DNA of 20,877 nt. Origin: a virus. The position numbers were made by a program, and so were the translations under genes. Location: the IMG/VR virus record IMGVR_UViG_3300022200_005297, positions 1 to 20,877 of that record. The stretch is one strand, 5' to 3'. Of this stretch, positions 553-19,654 are shown piece after piece. Numbering within the stretch: the stretch's first letter is position 1; every line of letters begins with the position of its first letter. The notes beneath the pieces were generated by a model, which searched no databases, had not been told where the DNA came from, and worked only from the letters and a program-made list of their open reading frames with translations.

Positions 553-2031
553 ATGCCTGATACAGGGTGGCTTTCGTTTGCTACATTTACATCGCAGTTG
601 TCTGGGTTGGCGTGGAGCAACCCATCTTACGCGCAAAGTGATGATGGGAATTATTCGAGCGCGGGTACTCTTACGACGATCGGACAAGGGACACAACGGC
701 TTTACGGTCGCAATGTTGGTTCGCCATCTATACCATCAAACGCGGTGGTTGTTGGTATTGAGGTTCGGATCGAAAGATATGCCTCTGCCGCAAACTTGTT
801 ATACCACAGGGTTCAGGTGATGGATGGGGGTGGAACGCCGCAAGGCGACTTGAAAACCATAAATGATACGTGGTCAACATCCGTAGAAACCAAGATATTT
901 GGAAGTAGTACGGATGACTGGAATGCCGGGTTTGACGGAAGTGATGTGCTAGGGTCGCTTTTTGGTATTAGAACCTATGTAACAAATCCGCTAACCCAAA
1001 ACACAGACGTGTATATTGATTACGCGGAAATCAAGGTTTATTACGAGTATTTCTCTCCAGAGCCGTCAACTGTCGCCTTTGCCTTCACGCCAGTCAGCCC
1101 GGCAATATCTGTGGACAAAGCAGTATCGCCAAATGGGATTTCATTCTCCATATCCCCACAATCGCCGTCGATTACCGTTGGAACCACCGTCACGCCAGCC
1201 GCCATTTCGTTCGGGTTCTCTCCAACCACGCCAACAGTCGAGATTGATTATTCAATAACCCCGACAGCGACACCGTTTGGATTTTCTCTTGCGGCCCCAA
1301 CCGCCACAGTAGATAAATCTGTTTCAACCGACCCTGTTACATTCGGCTTCGCCATCGCATCGCCAACCGCCACGCCGCACAAGACTGTAACGCCGTCGCC
1401 CGCGGCGTTTGCTTTCACGGTGAACACGCCGGGAGTAACCTCTGGCGGGAACGTGGCACCAAGCCCAACAACCTTTTCAATTTCTGTCGCTTCGCCAGGG
1501 GTTTCGGTGGATAAGGGTGTTTCCCCATCCCCCCTCGCCCTTGGCATTTCAATTCCGACACCATCTGTCAGTGTGGGTAAATCGCCCGATCCATCCACGC
1601 TACCATTCACCATGACGCCGGTTGCCCCCGGTATTTCAGTGGATAAAACCGTTTCCCCACTCCCCGTAGGCTTCGCCTTCACAGTGATGAATCCGGCGAT
1701 TACTATCGGCCCCACCGTCGATGCCGGACGCCACATCGACACCATAATCGACCTCGACTACACAATGAGGCCAACGGTTCTTGAGGGCGGGTCGGCGATC
1801 ACGACATACTTGTGGGAAGTGGTGAGTGAGCCGATGGGCGCGACCGTGACATTCAGCGCCACCAGTGTAGAAGCACCAACCGTCAGCTTTGATACCGTAG
1901 GCGATTACACCCTCCGCCTCACCGTGACGGATGCGAACGGGAATGACGGCGACGACACTGTGACAGCGACGGTTTATCTGTCCCTCGGCGGTGATCCGCT
2001 ATACCGTTCACTACCAAGGAAGTTTGTATGA
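553..2031 (+). CDS. Modular surface/adhesin-like protein with ten 22-residue repeats and a PKD-like domain
   Basis: This 492-residue protein has three parts. Residues 1-170 form a beta-rich domain with a W-x-NPSYA start, the pattern IPSNA followed by GIEVRIER, and an end in VYIDYAEIKVYY. That domain type recurs in phage and environmental extracellular proteins. Residues 172-389 are ten tandem repeats of 22 residues. Residues 390-480 resemble a PKD/Ig-like domain (YLWEV, VSFDTVGDYTLRLTVTDANG). There is no signal peptide, so it is probably assembled into the particle as a head fibre, decoration or glycan-binding appendage. The start ATG has AAGG at 540-543. The stop overlaps the sulfotransferase start as ATGA, so the two are likely translated together. 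Part of the N-domain is much more A/T-rich than neighbouring genes, suggesting acquisition. A role in host attachment is inference. Confidence 0.75.
   Translation: MPDTGWLSFATFTSQLSGLAWSNPSYAQSDDGNYSSAGTLTTIGQGTQRLYGRNVGSPSIPSNAVVVGIEVRIERYASAANLLYHRVQVMDGGGTPQGDLKTINDTWSTSVETKIFGSSTDDWNAGFDGSDVLGSLFGIRTYVTNPLTQNTDVYIDYAEIKVYYEYFSPEPSTVAFAFTPVSPAISVDKAVSPNGISFSISPQSPSITVGTTVTPAAISFGFSPTTPTVEIDYSITPTATPFGFSLAAPTATVDKSVSTDPVTFGFAIASPTATPHKTVTPSPAAFAFTVNTPGVTSGGNVAPSPTTFSISVASPGVSVDKGVSPSPLALGISIPTPSVSVGKSPDPSTLPFTMTPVAPGISVDKTVSPLPVGFAFTVMNPAITIGPTVDAGRHIDTIIDLDYTMRPTVLEGGSAITTYLWEVVSEPMGATVTFSATSVEAPTVSFDTVGDYTLRLTVTDANGNDGDDTVTATVYLSLGGDPLYRSLPRKFV
1066..1725 (+). repeat. Ten tandem 66-bp (22-residue) coding repeats
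   Basis: The units start at 1066, 1132, 1198, 1264, 1330, 1396, 1462, 1528, 1594 and 1660. Every unit up to the last is exactly 66 bp. Shared protein positions are Phe (or Leu/Ile) at 5 and 7, Pro at 12, Val/Ile at 14 and 16, often Asp-Lys at 17-18, Val at 20 and Pro at 22. The DNA of the units has diverged strongly while length and hydrophobic pattern are kept, so selection acts on the protein. The pattern suggests a beta-strand rod or stalk. The repeats are coding, with no spacers, so they are not CRISPR. Confidence 0.9.
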
Positions 2032-2636
2032 TCTGCATACTATCCAGCGGTCGATCTGGAACCACCTACACCTCGAACCTACTCAACGCGCTCGGTGTTG
2101 ACGTGGGGCATGAGAAGGTGGGAGAGCGGGGGATGATCGGGTGCAATTGGTACGAGTTCCTTGACAGACCGAAGTATCGTGGGAAGTTCACGCGCAGGCT
2201 ACACCAGGTCCGCGAACCCATTGCCTGCATCCGTTCCATGCTCACCCTGAAAAACGGGATTTTCAGTCGAATCGAATCGGTGGTGGGCGCTCCGAAGCTG
2301 CACCCGAACGAAGAACTCCGCAAGGTCCATCGTGCCGCATCCGTCTACATGAGGTTTAACCACCTGATGGCGAGCAAAGCGTCGTGGACCTACCGCGTCG
2401 AGGACTTGAAGTTCGGGAGTGCGGTGTATGACAACCTGTGCAACATATTCGATGTTCCACGTGGAACACGCCCCCGCATCCTCAGGTTGCCCCTGAATAT
2501 CAACACAAGGCCCAAGGCAGGCGTGCCGGAGGTTTCGTGGGAAATACTCAAGAAGATTGACGAAAGCCTGTCAGATGGCATAATGAGCATGGCAGAGAGT
2601 TACGGATACACCTACGCAAAACAGGAAATCACATAA
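2028..2636 (+). CDS. Sulfotransferase family protein (PAPS-dependent type)
   Basis: The 202-residue protein carries the three sequence marks of the sulfotransferase fold. A P-loop-like 5'-phosphosulfate loop, SSGRSGTT, lies at residues 6-13. A 3'-phosphate motif has R62, P64 and S70, the Arg-to-Ser spacing of eight seen in the family. A downstream RVED motif (residues 123-126) matches the conserved RYED element. By family knowledge the enzyme would move a sulfuryl group from PAPS to a hydroxyl or amine; the acceptor is unknown. It is somewhat shorter than typical cellular enzymes (about 250-300 aa). The ATG has AAGGA at 2016-2020 and overlaps the upstream stop as ATGA. The stop overlaps the scaffold start by one base. 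It therefore sits inside the head operon, suggesting that it acts late on a cell-envelope glycan or on a virion component. Confidence 0.8.
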   Translation: MICILSSGRSGTTYTSNLLNALGVDVGHEKVGERGMIGCNWYEFLDRPKYRGKFTRRLHQVREPIACIRSMLTLKNGIFSRIESVVGAPKLHPNEELRKVHRAASVYMRFNHLMASKASWTYRVEDLKFGSAVYDNLCNIFDVPRGTRPRILRLPLNINTRPKAGVPEVSWEILKKIDESLSDGIMSMAESYGYTYAKQEIT

Positions 2637-16876: not shown

Positions 16877-16887
16877 GAAGCTACTTC
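16870..16887. terminator. Inverted repeat across the convergent stop codons (weak bidirectional terminator)
   Basis: GAAGTA (16870-16875) and TACTTC (16882-16887) form a 6-bp hairpin with a 6-nt loop. It spans the fibre TAA and the minus-strand TAG, which are 4 bp apart. Neither side has a T tract, so termination would be weak or rho-dependent. Confidence 0.3.
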
Positions 16888-17153
16888 GTCATTGCATCTG
16901 GAAGCGTGCCGAGGCGTGTTTCAATGCGGATCGTGGCGTTGTAGATGTACTCCTGCCGCTGCTCGACCTTGCTTATCCGCTTGGAGTGATCCGCTAGTGT
17001 CATATCAATCTTCGTTGCAATTGTCGCGTCGTCACGCGCCGAGTCAATTGCTGCTGACACTATTGGATTGATTATGCCGAAGGCAACGATAATCGCGCCA
17101 CAGACAAGACCAATAGGAATCATGGTTTTTCCATCAAGTACGCTGACGTTCAC
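16881..17153 (-). CDS. Small membrane-anchored coiled-coil protein, possible i-spanin or holin-associated
   Basis: The 90-residue protein starts with GTG at 17153. GGAGG seven bases upstream supports this over the internal ATG. Residues about 11-35 form one transmembrane helix (MIPIGLVCGAIIVAFGIINPIV). The rest is hydrophilic and helical with coiled-coil character (HSKRISKVEQRQEYIY). An N-terminal anchor plus coiled coil is the layout of Rz-type inner-membrane spanins, and also of small phage proteins annotated as holin-like. It overlaps the upstream gene by the four bases GTGA and is the last gene of the minus-strand cluster, two genes after the holin/lipoprotein fusion. A lysis role is inferred from topology and context. 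Confidence 0.65.
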   Translation of the reverse strand: MNVSVLDGKTMIPIGLVCGAIIVAFGIINPIVSAAIDSARDDATIATKIDMTLADHSKRISKVEQRQEYIYNATIRIETRLGTLPDAMTK

Positions 17154-17368
17154 GTTTGGACCTCCGGGCTGGTAGGTTTCGGCTTGCCATGCAATACATT
17201 TGCTACATGGTCGATGGCTGAAAGTAACTGCTCGTTGGTTGCCTCATCCGTCAGCACGACGATAACCGACTTGCGATCCTGCTTATAATCACCATGCCCG
17301 CGCATAAGGGCATAGTCGGCACTTCGGCCAATCCAAACCGCTTCACGTTCGATGGTGGATAGCGTCAT
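17150..17368 (-). CDS. Small protein of unknown function, 72 aa
   Basis: The ATG at 17366-17368 lies three bases after the upstream stop codon and follows a GGCGG-type purine-rich site. The product has no membrane segment or cysteine. It contains an EREAVWIGRSADYALMRG segment followed by a hydrophobic strand (SVIVVLTDE) and a short helix (NEQLLSAIDHVANVL). I do not recognise it. The tight spacing and the GTGA overlap with the next gene indicate one transcript with the presumed lysis proteins. It might be a soluble regulator or accessory of that cassette, but the sequence alone does not show this. Confidence 0.6.
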   Translation of the reverse strand: MTLSTIEREAVWIGRSADYALMRGHGDYKQDRKSVIVVLTDEATNEQLLSAIDHVANVLHGKPKPTSPEVQT

Positions 17369-17371
17369 GGG

Positions 17372-18073
17372 TTAGCCGCCGCTTCCCGGCGTCACGTTCA
17401 CGTCAACAGGGATGTTGGGGTTGGCGGTTGCCGTGGGGGTTTGGTTGGTGGTATTGCCTTGGGTGGGCGATTGAGTAGGGGTTTGCGTTTGGCCCTGCGT
17501 TGTACCTTCGGTAGAACCACTGATTGTGGCGCTGGCGGAAGGGCTGTACTCGGCGTTTTGAGCGATGATGAGGGTTTCGATAGGGCCGCTGGCCGATCCT
17601 GTGACCTTGCCATTCTCATCGACCGACCATGTTACGGAAGCCTGACCGGGTGTATCACCCGCCCTACGGTTTGGCTTATCACCCACACCCGCCTGTGCGC
17701 CGCCGGCTGCAGCCGCTACATTGTTATCACCCTGCCCCGCTCGCTGTTGCCCCGTCTGCGGGGTGGCTTGGCGTGCGGCCTGCGGGGTTGTGTTGGTTGC
17801 TGATGCTGGCGCGCAACCGACGATTGACAGGGAGGGTAGGAGCATGAGGGCAATGACCAATGCCCCACCTGCCGCCCGCTTCACCCCGCCGCGGTTGACT
17901 TGATACCCCATCGCCACAAGCACCGCGCCGAGGATTGCGGCGATCTTCTCGCGTGGCGACCCTGCTGCGAAGTGGTCGCTCACGACGAGGGCTGAAACGA
18001 TGGTGGCTGCGACAGAAAGCCAGAACTCAGTTGTTTTGTATCCGGGTTTGACTTCGGCGGTTGACTTGGCCAT
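17372..18073 (-). CDS. Holin-like protein fused to a low-complexity lipoprotein
   Basis: The 233-residue protein starts at ATG 18073 with AAGGA seven bases upstream. Residues 9-60 resemble small phage holin-like proteins: KPGYKTTEFWLS, a first membrane helix (about 17-36), then a GSPREKIA loop and a second helix (about 44-57). After KR at 65-66 a third hydrophobic stretch (70-86) ends in IVGC, a lipobox with Cys87. Residues 88-233 are hydrophilic, rich in Thr, Gln, Pro, Gly and Ala, with a small beta-like part (ASVTWSVDENGKVTG). The positive-inside rule puts the lipobox at the periplasmic face, so signal peptidase II could separate holin and lipoprotein (o-spanin-like) parts. A GTG at 17884 could start the lipoprotein alone, but it lacks a well-placed Shine-Dalgarno. 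No endolysin is adjacent. Confidence 0.72.
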   Translation of the reverse strand: MAKSTAEVKPGYKTTEFWLSVAATIVSALVVSDHFAAGSPREKIAAILGAVLVAMGYQVNRGGVKRAAGGALVIALMLLPSLSIVGCAPASATNTTPQAARQATPQTGQQRAGQGDNNVAAAAGGAQAGVGDKPNRRAGDTPGQASVTWSVDENGKVTGSASGPIETLIIAQNAEYSPSASATISGSTEGTTQGQTQTPTQSPTQGNTTNQTPTATANPNIPVDVNVTPGSGG

Positions 18074-18115
18074 GACGGGTTCCTTACCTGTTTTGGGGTT
18101 TAGCTTTGCAGTAAT

Positions 18116-18152: not shown

Positions 18153-18881
18153 TCAAAGGCCGACCGCCTCCAATTCTTCTCGTTCCGCAAGCCTTGACTG
18201 GAACGCCCCGAAATTGCGGGGTGGTCTGGACACGCCAATATAAAAAGACTCGGCGTACAAGAGAGTTGCGGCGGGAAACTCAAGGTATCCAACCCATTCT
18301 CCATCAAAAATATTTGGATGTGATAGGGTCGCCCGCTTACTGAGGTTTATGCTTTGCCCCACATAAACAATATCGCCGTACTCGTCGCGTACAAAATAAA
18401 CACCAGATGATTCAGGAAGCCCATCGCCATCGCAAGTCGCTGGAAGCCGGAGTGGGGGGATTGGGGGATACGCATCTGACCAGTACGGCGGGGCTTTGGG
18501 GTCAGGGCGTATCTGGATTGCGTTTGCGGTGTGACGGCTGATTGCGCGAAGCCTATCCTCGACCTCAGCCTCTATACGACGATCACGATCAGCGCGTTCC
18601 AGTTTATACAAATACCCATAATCAAGATTCACATTCCCAATCTCTTGTAGCCGATCTAGCGATTCCGGGGCTATCCGACTCAATATTTCGGCGTATAGGC
18701 CACTCGGAACATGGTTCCAGCGGACAGCACACATGATGCACGCGGACAGATGCTCGATAACCGCAATTAGTTCGCGGTTTTTGCCGGTGGCAATGATGTG
18801 CTTGACCTCACTATCGTCACACGACTTTACCCAACACTCATGCCCACCACCCCTACAGCGTCGAACGCCAGAATCAGCCAT
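18153..18881 (-). CDS. GIY-YIG nuclease with N-terminal cysteine-rich region
   Basis: I prefer the ATG at 18881, with GGAG nine bases upstream; the ATG at 18896 lacks a ribosome-binding site. The 242-residue protein has a C-terminal GIY-YIG domain (about 160-220): GVYFV with Tyr162, VYVGQS with Tyr173, Arg183, and Glu211 in LLYAESFYIG as the metal ligand. The N-terminus holds Cys9, His14, Cys16, Cys21, then H44-LSACIMC with Cys48 and Cys51, a plausible zinc site. The middle is helical and charged with a Pro-rich linker (PPYWSDAYPPIPPLRLP). The gene is more A/T-rich than its neighbours, suggesting recent arrival. It could be a homing-type or host-DNA-attacking nuclease, or act in DNA repair; the target is unknown. 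Confidence 0.82.
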   Translation of the reverse strand: MADSGVRRCRGGGHECWVKSCDDSEVKHIIATGKNRELIAVIEHLSACIMCAVRWNHVPSGLYAEILSRIAPESLDRLQEIGNVNLDYGYLYKLERADRDRRIEAEVEDRLRAISRHTANAIQIRPDPKAPPYWSDAYPPIPPLRLPATCDGDGLPESSGVYFVRDEYGDIVYVGQSINLSKRATLSHPNIFDGEWVGYLEFPAATLLYAESFYIGVSRPPRNFGAFQSRLAEREELEAVGL

Positions 18882-18902
18882 TTCAAGAATCTCCATGTAG
18901 AA

Positions 18903-19256
18903 TTAAAGGTCGGCTATTGTCAGTTCTTCTCGCCTCACCGTCCACACTTTCCGCTTGCCTCTCGCCCCCCGCTTCGCCCACGACACCACCTCGAACCTCC
19001 CGCCTGCCTTGAGCCAGTCTTGCAACGCCTCTTGCTCCAGCGCCTTCGTCCTGCGTGCCGCGTGACTCGACCCAGCGCACGCCTGAATACCGACCACGCC
19101 AACACCCTCACGCACCGCGACAATGTCGATGCAGCCGAACAGGTCGATGCGCCTGCGGGAGTATTGACACCACCGCTCGACCACCTGCACCTTGAATCCA
19201 AGGTCGCGGAAGTATGCGAGAGTGCGCTGTGTGGGTGAATTACTTGCCACGTTCAC
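18903..19256 (-). CDS. PD-(D/E)XK-like nuclease-fold protein, 117 aa
   Basis: The GTG start at 19256 overlaps the upstream stop as GTGA. The 117-residue basic protein follows a nuclease-like plan: an N-terminal helix (TLAYFRDLGFKV), a strand with Glu27, RRRIDLFGCIDIVAV with Asp38 and Asp44, then GVVGIQACAGSS and a basic helix (HAARRTKALEQEA). It ends with WLKAGGRFEVVSWAKRGARGKRKVW. This matches a small phage family that I remember as related to Holliday-junction-resolvase/VRR-NUC folds. The usual E-x-K is replaced by Gln58-x-Cys60, so activity may be altered or lost. It precedes the GIY-YIG gene, suggesting a DNA-processing pair, though GC content differs between them. Confidence 0.68.
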   Translation of the reverse strand: MNVASNSPTQRTLAYFRDLGFKVQVVERWCQYSRRRIDLFGCIDIVAVREGVGVVGIQACAGSSHAARRTKALEQEALQDWLKAGGRFEVVSWAKRGARGKRKVWTVRREELTIADL

Positions 19257-19654
19257 GCCCCCCTCGCATCGCGCGCGGCGGATTTGGCAAGGGCGCGGGT
19301 GGAGTACAGCGCCGTCGTGTACGGGTCGCTTTCATCCGCCATTACATTACCGCCATCAGTTATGTCAATCGGGTGTCCGTATTGAACGCGGACACGGAGT
19401 AAATCAGCGCCTGCTACGCGACCGTCAATTGTGCCTGTGCGGAACGCACAATAGACGTACATCCCCGGAACGATCGGCACGCCGTCAGCCGTCTTTGGCA
19501 GCTTTTCGACGATGGCACGCAGGCGGGTGAGTTGGTCAAGCCTTGCTGTGACGACTTCCCACGCATCACCTACGCCGGTGTCGGGTTCAGTAAAGCCCGC
19601 GACGTTTTCAATCGTGCGGATAGCTCCATCAAGTTGCTCGTCGTTGTTACTCAT
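19253..19654 (-). CDS. Phage accessory protein of unknown function, 133 aa
   Basis: The start is the ATG at 19654 (MSNNDEQLDG), preceded by an AGG-type site. The frame extends upstream to 19864, but the added residues look like out-of-frame translation of the neighbouring gene. The product has an acidic helical N-half (GAIRTIENV; AWEVVTARLDQLTRLRAIVEKLP) and a C-half opening with TADGVPIVPGMYVYC, a motif I recognise from small early-region phage proteins without known role. Short strands follow (GTIDGRVAGADLLRVRVQYG). The first eight bases overlap the upstream gene and the stop overlaps the next start. Confidence 0.7.
   Translation of the reverse strand: MSNNDEQLDGAIRTIENVAGFTEPDTGVGDAWEVVTARLDQLTRLRAIVEKLPKTADGVPIVPGMYVYCAFRTGTIDGRVAGADLLRVRVQYGHPIDITDGGNVMADESDPYTTALYSTRALAKSAARDARGA

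Follow-up and report, generated by a model that had tools for sequence, protein, structure and literature searches.

A 233-residue reading frame in an uncultured podovirus raises the question of whether one phage gene can supply both a holin and an outer-membrane spanin, and how its single product could be divided. The window analysed here is the whole stretch of 20,877 nucleotides, an IMG/VR contig that encodes a T7-type tail-fibre N-terminal domain, a nozzle protein and a Phage_capsid_2 head protein. An earlier note on this DNA had described the product as two holin-type helices continued in frame by a lipoprotein, and had proposed a split by signal peptidase II. Comparison with the relatives of this protein (the query) leads us to a similar view, in which a class II holin-like domain appears to be fused to an o-spanin-like lipoprotein and the product is, by a modest balance of the evidence, probably split by Lgt and LspA.

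The fused gene and its predicted parts

The gene occupies positions 17372–18073 on the minus strand, as do all its parts given below. It starts with an ATG (18073–18071), preceded by the Shine-Dalgarno sequence AAGGAA (18080–18085; duplex energy -6.1 kcal/mol). Hydropathy reveals three hydrophobic segments (residues 15–31, 44–60 and 71–87), the second and third of which are separated by V64-K65-R66. The N-terminal two-helix domain (residues 1–65; 17879–18073) was delimited by an alignment of 54 relatives and carries KPGYKTTEFW at residues 9–18. With this alignment, AlphaFold2 predicted a confident hairpin consisting of helix 1 (residues 14–31; 17981–18034) and helix 2 (residues 40–62; 17888–17956), both supported by hydropathy and with a pLDDT of about 90, and in addition a weak helix at residues 71–83. 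According to hydropathy, the third helix, which would be the h-region of a lipoprotein signal, spans residues 68–86 (17816–17872); at its end lies the lipobox I84-V85-G86-C87 (17813–17824, with Cys87 at 17813–17815). The 146 residues after the cysteine (residues 88–233; 17375–17812) form a low-complexity, presumably periplasmic part rich in T, Q, P, G, A, N and S, predicted by AlphaFold2 to be mostly disordered save for a small beta-beta-alpha element at residues 146–172. Sequence and hydropathy thus bear out the layout given in the earlier note (two helices, KR, a third helix, IVG-Cys87 and 146 low-complexity residues).

The lipobox of the query, KRAAGGALVIALMLLPSLSIVGC, is preceded by a hydrophobic segment and a positive n-region and matches the strict consensus [LVI][ASTVI][GAS]C given in a spanin survey (PMC6139136). 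In one respect the query differs from a conventional lipoprotein: the signal is not N-terminal in the primary product, since 65 residues with two helices precede it.

The fused gene is present in identical form in two further contigs (L002 and L003), and therefore, with three contigs in total, it is not an assembly error. An assembly or stop-loss artefact is ruled out by these three identical contigs together with the seven other fusions described below. One of the two further contigs is 41.1 kb long and contains the whole window at 99.9% identity. In this 41-kb copy, no lipoprotein-type signal apart from that of the fused gene lies on a plausible coding strand; the three others are antisense to larger open reading frames. 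The GC content by codon position did not discriminate whether the low-complexity half of the query is coding.

Separate relatives of the two halves

Relatives of the N-terminal domain were collected from viral collections in scans with the KTTEFW motif, each of which gave about 260–280 relatives, the best 80 being taken, and from 13 more loci with the domain on bacterial and MAG contigs. This resulted in 131 distinct domain proteins. Among the relatives so listed, separate proteins of 60–100 amino acids are the rule (at least about 120 distinct ones), and nearly all of them end right after the hairpin, typically with ..GYTVSRTMVKK and a stop codon. G11–W18, Y57, R61 and K65 are invariant across the 54 aligned members. 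At one locus (L184:3962–4384) the two-helix domain is duplicated in tandem, resulting in a single 140-aa protein with two KTTEFW motifs.

Is this domain a holin? When the members were scanned one by one against PHROG, holin families were the commonest named matches (phrog_526, 34682, 2359, 1299, 297, 565 and 3428). The matches are weak (best E-value 8e-5), and they were obtained with other family members, the query's own domain matching no PHROG holin family. Since NCBIfam gave equally weak chance matches to unrelated membrane families, we take the PHROG matches only as support. The holin type that the earlier note had seen in the N part is in keeping with these results, which place it in a family of free-standing two-helix proteins that weakly resemble holins. 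The hairpin of the query is flanked by positive residues (K9 and K13 on one side; R61, K65 and R66 on the other), after which the fused protein runs on into the third helix. Because positive charges are present at both ends, the sequence suggests an N-in/C-in hairpin, which is the topology of class II holins (PMC9636201).

The lipoprotein half was searched for as a neighbouring gene, defined by a start codon, a positive n-region, a hydrophobic stretch, a lipobox cysteine and at least 20 further residues. Such a signal was found within 420 nucleotides downstream on the same strand in 75 of the 119 distinct separate relatives whose downstream sequence was long enough (63%), compared with 10 of 1254 windows of the same size taken elsewhere in the same loci (0.8%), the counts not being independent because many of the 119 are related. 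Homologs with the two halves as separate genes, for which the earlier note had advised a search, are thus frequent. At least four or five unrelated lipoprotein families are located downstream of separate domain genes. The main one has the pattern ..C..SRTVFVPESSPMRIGP..VY..GEWxLSxNxVxIPEGWY.. and usually lies inside a second small open reading frame but is read in a different frame, an Rz/Rz1-like arrangement. Examples located directly downstream of a separate two-helix gene are L006:5180–5521, L016:2403–2711, L052:2196–2375 and many others.

The query gave no match above the cut-off in Pfam, PHROG or NCBIfam and no sequence match in the PDB, and neither the query nor its separate relatives matched annotated phages. 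In 50,697 annotated phage records, no convincing match to the domain or to the main lipoprotein family was found; no Pfam family and no PHROG with a named function covers either of them, and the nested lipoprotein family likewise had no match in annotated phages, PHROGs or Pfam. For the C part of the query, no relative outside its own virus was found in the viral collection searched. A C-terminal domain shared by four other fusions (see below) is resembled by a lone lipoprotein in the phage record MW202816 (tblastn E 0.02; profile comparison E 0.0005, probability 32%), the gene of which is located just upstream of an annotated N-acetylmuramoyl-L-alanine amidase.

The eight fusions and the possible use of their lipobox

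Eight of the 131 distinct proteins extend the domain in frame by more than about 60 residues, namely the query, L013, L067, L027, L037, L102, L337 and L342, the last of which ends at the end of its contig. The only other long domain protein is that of L184, whose extension is the second domain copy. A maximum-likelihood tree was built from 71 rows of the 60-residue domain and is partly unresolved because there are few columns. It requires five changes between the separate and the fused state, and at least four of them are forced by well-supported branches. The query (represented by L003) groups with L004, L006 and L011, which carry a separate downstream lipoprotein gene. Because of the five changes and of these neighbours with separate genes, the fusion looks derived, and it happened more than once.

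All eight fusions have [AGS]-Cys at the end of the third hydrophobic stretch, compared with 42 of 581 internal hydrophobic helices (7%) from other open reading frames in the same loci. The lipoboxes end in IVGC (query), QTSC (L013), QIAC (L067), LGGC (L027), MIAC (L037), APAC (L102), STGC (L337) and FSGC (L342). Five of the eight fit a PROSITE-type lipobox pattern, which is the case for only 24 of the 581 control helices (4%). The position of [AGS]-Cys at the end of helix 3 is more than chance. The earlier note had made its reading depend on conservation of the cysteine and the lipobox in relatives, and among these fusions the cysteine is kept throughout. The strict consensus quoted above is fitted by the query only, with Q at -3 in L013 and L067 and P at -2 in L102 among the departures; functional spanin lipoboxes outside this consensus have been reported in the spanin survey (PMC6139136). 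None of the eight has an Asp at +2. Behind the lipobox, L013, L067, L337 and L102 have a C-terminal domain in common (36–49% whole-length identity to L067), in which the lipobox cysteine and one later cysteine are invariant; its predicted structure, modelled for the L067 family, has a pLDDT of 40 and is too poor for use. No relation was detected among the C parts of the remaining fusions.

A lipobox that departs from the PROSITE-type pattern in three of eight fusions, at a place where lipoprotein signals are normally not found, since they are N-terminal, could be explained without any lipid. Helix 3 would then be an ordinary transmembrane helix with an unmodified cysteine, and the product an uncleaved three-helix N-in/C-out protein with a flexible periplasmic tail. 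We consider this quite improbable: it would not account for [AGS]-Cys in eight of eight cases against 7% of internal helices, reached in about five fusions of independent origin whose C parts are mostly unrelated, nor for the lipoprotein genes that separate relatives carry in the same place.

It might also be possible that the lipoprotein is made from an in-frame nested gene with an internal start (GTG64 in the query, ATG68 in L027, GTG62 in L067), so that the full-length frame would be translated as well and no polyprotein would have to be cleaved. Internal ATG or GTG codons in the query, L027, L013, L067 and L337 would indeed give a signal with a positive n-region 20–25 residues before the cysteine, and in relatives with separate genes the lipoprotein frequently begins within another small open reading frame or overlaps one. 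However, the internal starts lack a Shine-Dalgarno sequence: their duplex energies lie between +1.2 and -3.3 kcal/mol, while the 128 starts of N-domain genes average -6.8; for random NTG triplets the mean is -2.8. For the GTG at codon 64 of the query (17882–17884), already described in the earlier note as lacking a good Shine-Dalgarno sequence, the energy is -1.7 compared with -6.1 kcal/mol at the gene's own start, so that it could serve as an alternative start, though a weak one. No usable internal start exists in L102, and those of L342 lie far off and have weak sites. Moreover, the internal codon specifies a Val or Met that belongs to the ancestral end of the domain (..VSRTMVKK), so that no start function is needed to explain its presence. 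An internal start at GTG64 is thus the main alternative, a weaker one than cleavage by Lgt and LspA, and we regard it as unlikely.

Under the preferred reading, cleavage by Lgt and LspA, residues 1–66 would be a class II-like holin domain with two helices, N-in and C-in, and residues 67–233 an o-spanin-like lipoprotein whose former signal peptide would now serve as the third helix. From an N-in/C-in hairpin it follows that helix 3, inserted by the Sec machinery, would be oriented N-in/C-out and that Cys87 would lie at the outer, periplasmic face of the inner membrane. Lgt and LspA act at this face in the established lipoprotein pathway. Lgt would add diacylglycerol to Cys87 and LspA would cut before it, leaving an 86-residue holin-like membrane peptide that retains a remnant helix, and releasing a lipoprotein of 147 residues. 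Because there is no Asp at +2, sorting to the outer membrane by the Lol pathway would be possible, and there the lipoprotein might disrupt the outer membrane together with a coiled-coil protein of the inner membrane, for which the 90-aa product of 16881–17153 is a candidate. In the literature searched, we found no record of LspA cleaving a lipobox located behind two earlier helices, and the searches of open-licence papers turned up nothing relevant on holin-spanin fusions or internal lipoboxes.

Since the fusions have several origins and always keep the lipid-attachment cysteine, the fused genes look like one-gene lysis modules that may be cut in two by the host signal peptidase. The broader idea, that tailed phages repeatedly fuse a holin with an o-spanin and let the host lipoprotein signal peptidase yield both, is put forward tentatively, as possible rather than probable.

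Lysis context and relation to known lysis proteins

In relatives with a recognisable endolysin gene, this gene lies near the domain gene. The fused genes of L013 and L067 share 4 nucleotides with the gene of an Amidase_2 endolysin (E 1.3e-9 and 1.1e-7). About 250 nucleotides downstream of the fused gene of L037 lies the gene of an endolysin that has M23-type features and a peptidoglycan-binding domain (phrog_2649, E 8e-15). A search for Amidase_2 in 48 viral records of the domain family detected it in five, in all of them within 1 kb of the domain gene: apart from the two overlaps it lies 290 nucleotides downstream (L249), 77 nucleotides upstream (L120) and about 830 nucleotides upstream (L112). 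The lysis setting proposed in the earlier note is therefore backed by those relatives in which an endolysin is recognisable, whereas in the query phage none was recognised by gene calling, by searches with two Pfam families or by scanning selected proteins against PHROG.

A short open reading frame that encodes a single helix and a coiled-coil-like stretch ends shortly before the domain gene in 26% of the representatives (18 of 68), compared with 3.7% of control windows. This layout is that of i-spanins and class III holins. The query genome has a candidate for such a partner two genes downstream of the fused gene, a 90-aa open reading frame (16881–17153, minus strand) with one N-terminal helix followed by a coiled-coil-like segment; the gene in between (72 aa, 17150–17368, minus strand) has no family match. 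Similarity to Rz families near domain genes reached E 0.003 at most (L027).

Phage exclusion lipoproteins exist, for instance Llp of T5, and a membrane protein and a surface lipoprotein made late could thus serve superinfection exclusion or envelope modification instead of lysis. One N-domain member weakly matches a PHROG family annotated as superinfection exclusion, and the absence of a recognised endolysin in the query phage would also fit this. Such a function nevertheless seems improbable to us, given that Amidase_2 adjoins the domain gene wherever it is present (five of five), that coiled-coil single-helix genes are located beside it, and that holin families are the commonest PHROG matches.

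None of the described holins, spanins and annotated phage families matches the query protein, and that it works like a holin plus an o-spanin is suggested by analogy. With class II holins such as S68 of the lambdoid phage phi21 the family shares two helices, a length of about 60–70 aa in separate relatives, positive charges at both ends and a place in lysis gene clusters. It differs in its weak sequence similarity to any holin family and in the lipoprotein fused to its C terminus. With the o-spanins lambda Rz1 and T4 PseT.2 (PMC6139136), the query shares the features of a phage lipoprotein with a lipobox and a low-complexity or small periplasmic part, a coiled-coil single-helix gene nearby and endolysin neighbours in its relatives; it differs in that the third helix of a holin-like protein forms its signal peptide, and in having no sequence similarity to known o-spanins. 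Unimolecular spanins such as T1 gp11 also combine a lipobox and inner-membrane helices in one polypeptide; they have an N-terminal lipobox and a C-terminal helix and bridge both membranes, whereas the order is reversed in the query. A unimolecular spanin is ruled out here, as the lipobox follows the helices and the protein lacks a helix at its C terminus. The NCBIfam entry NF058595 (lipo-invert putative C-terminal anchoring domain) likewise has a lipobox-like motif away from the N terminus; its match to residues 21–106 of the query (E 0.009, 16 bits with a cut-off of 37) is probably due to composition.

The spanin survey of 2018 lists 528 two-component and 58 unimolecular spanins and recognises embedded, overlapped, separated and unimolecular architectures (PMC6139136), and these spanin classes recur in a survey of viral lytic proteins from 2025 (PMC12596118); in the parts of both that were consulted, there is no mention of a holin fused to a lipoprotein. 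If our reading is right, a holin-fused type would be a fifth spanin gene architecture, and phages would use the host signal peptidase II for cutting a polyprotein. A single translation product would then couple the attack on the inner and the outer membrane in stoichiometry and timing, and lysis should be sensitive to LspA inhibitors such as globomycin. The separate genes would constitute an undescribed pair or triplet in many environmental phages, consisting of the KTTEFW two-helix protein, a lipoprotein and often a single-helix coiled-coil protein, and the lysis genes of these phages would have been missed by annotation.

Several further observations concern the genome of the query phage. 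When the window is compared with its 41-kb copy, 18 of 19 differences fall within 18948–19285, the rest of the 20.9 kb being otherwise identical; the differences in this segment are mostly located at multiples of 3 nucleotides within a 117-aa open reading frame (18903–19256), so that it has the appearance of a tract of recombination or gene conversion. Immediately upstream of the fused gene lies a 247-aa open reading frame (18153–18896, minus strand) with a weak GIY-YIG match, possibly a homing endonuclease gene inserted in the late region. In the head gene region, a 202-aa open reading frame (2028–2636, plus strand) has a sulfotransferase-like N terminus (CILSSGRSGTTY; Sulfotransfer_3, E 0.1). 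Just left of the window, the 41-kb copy encodes among its structural genes an N-terminally membrane-anchored protein (L220:18423–19496) with weak similarity to GDSL/SGNH hydrolases (DUF6473, E 1e-4).
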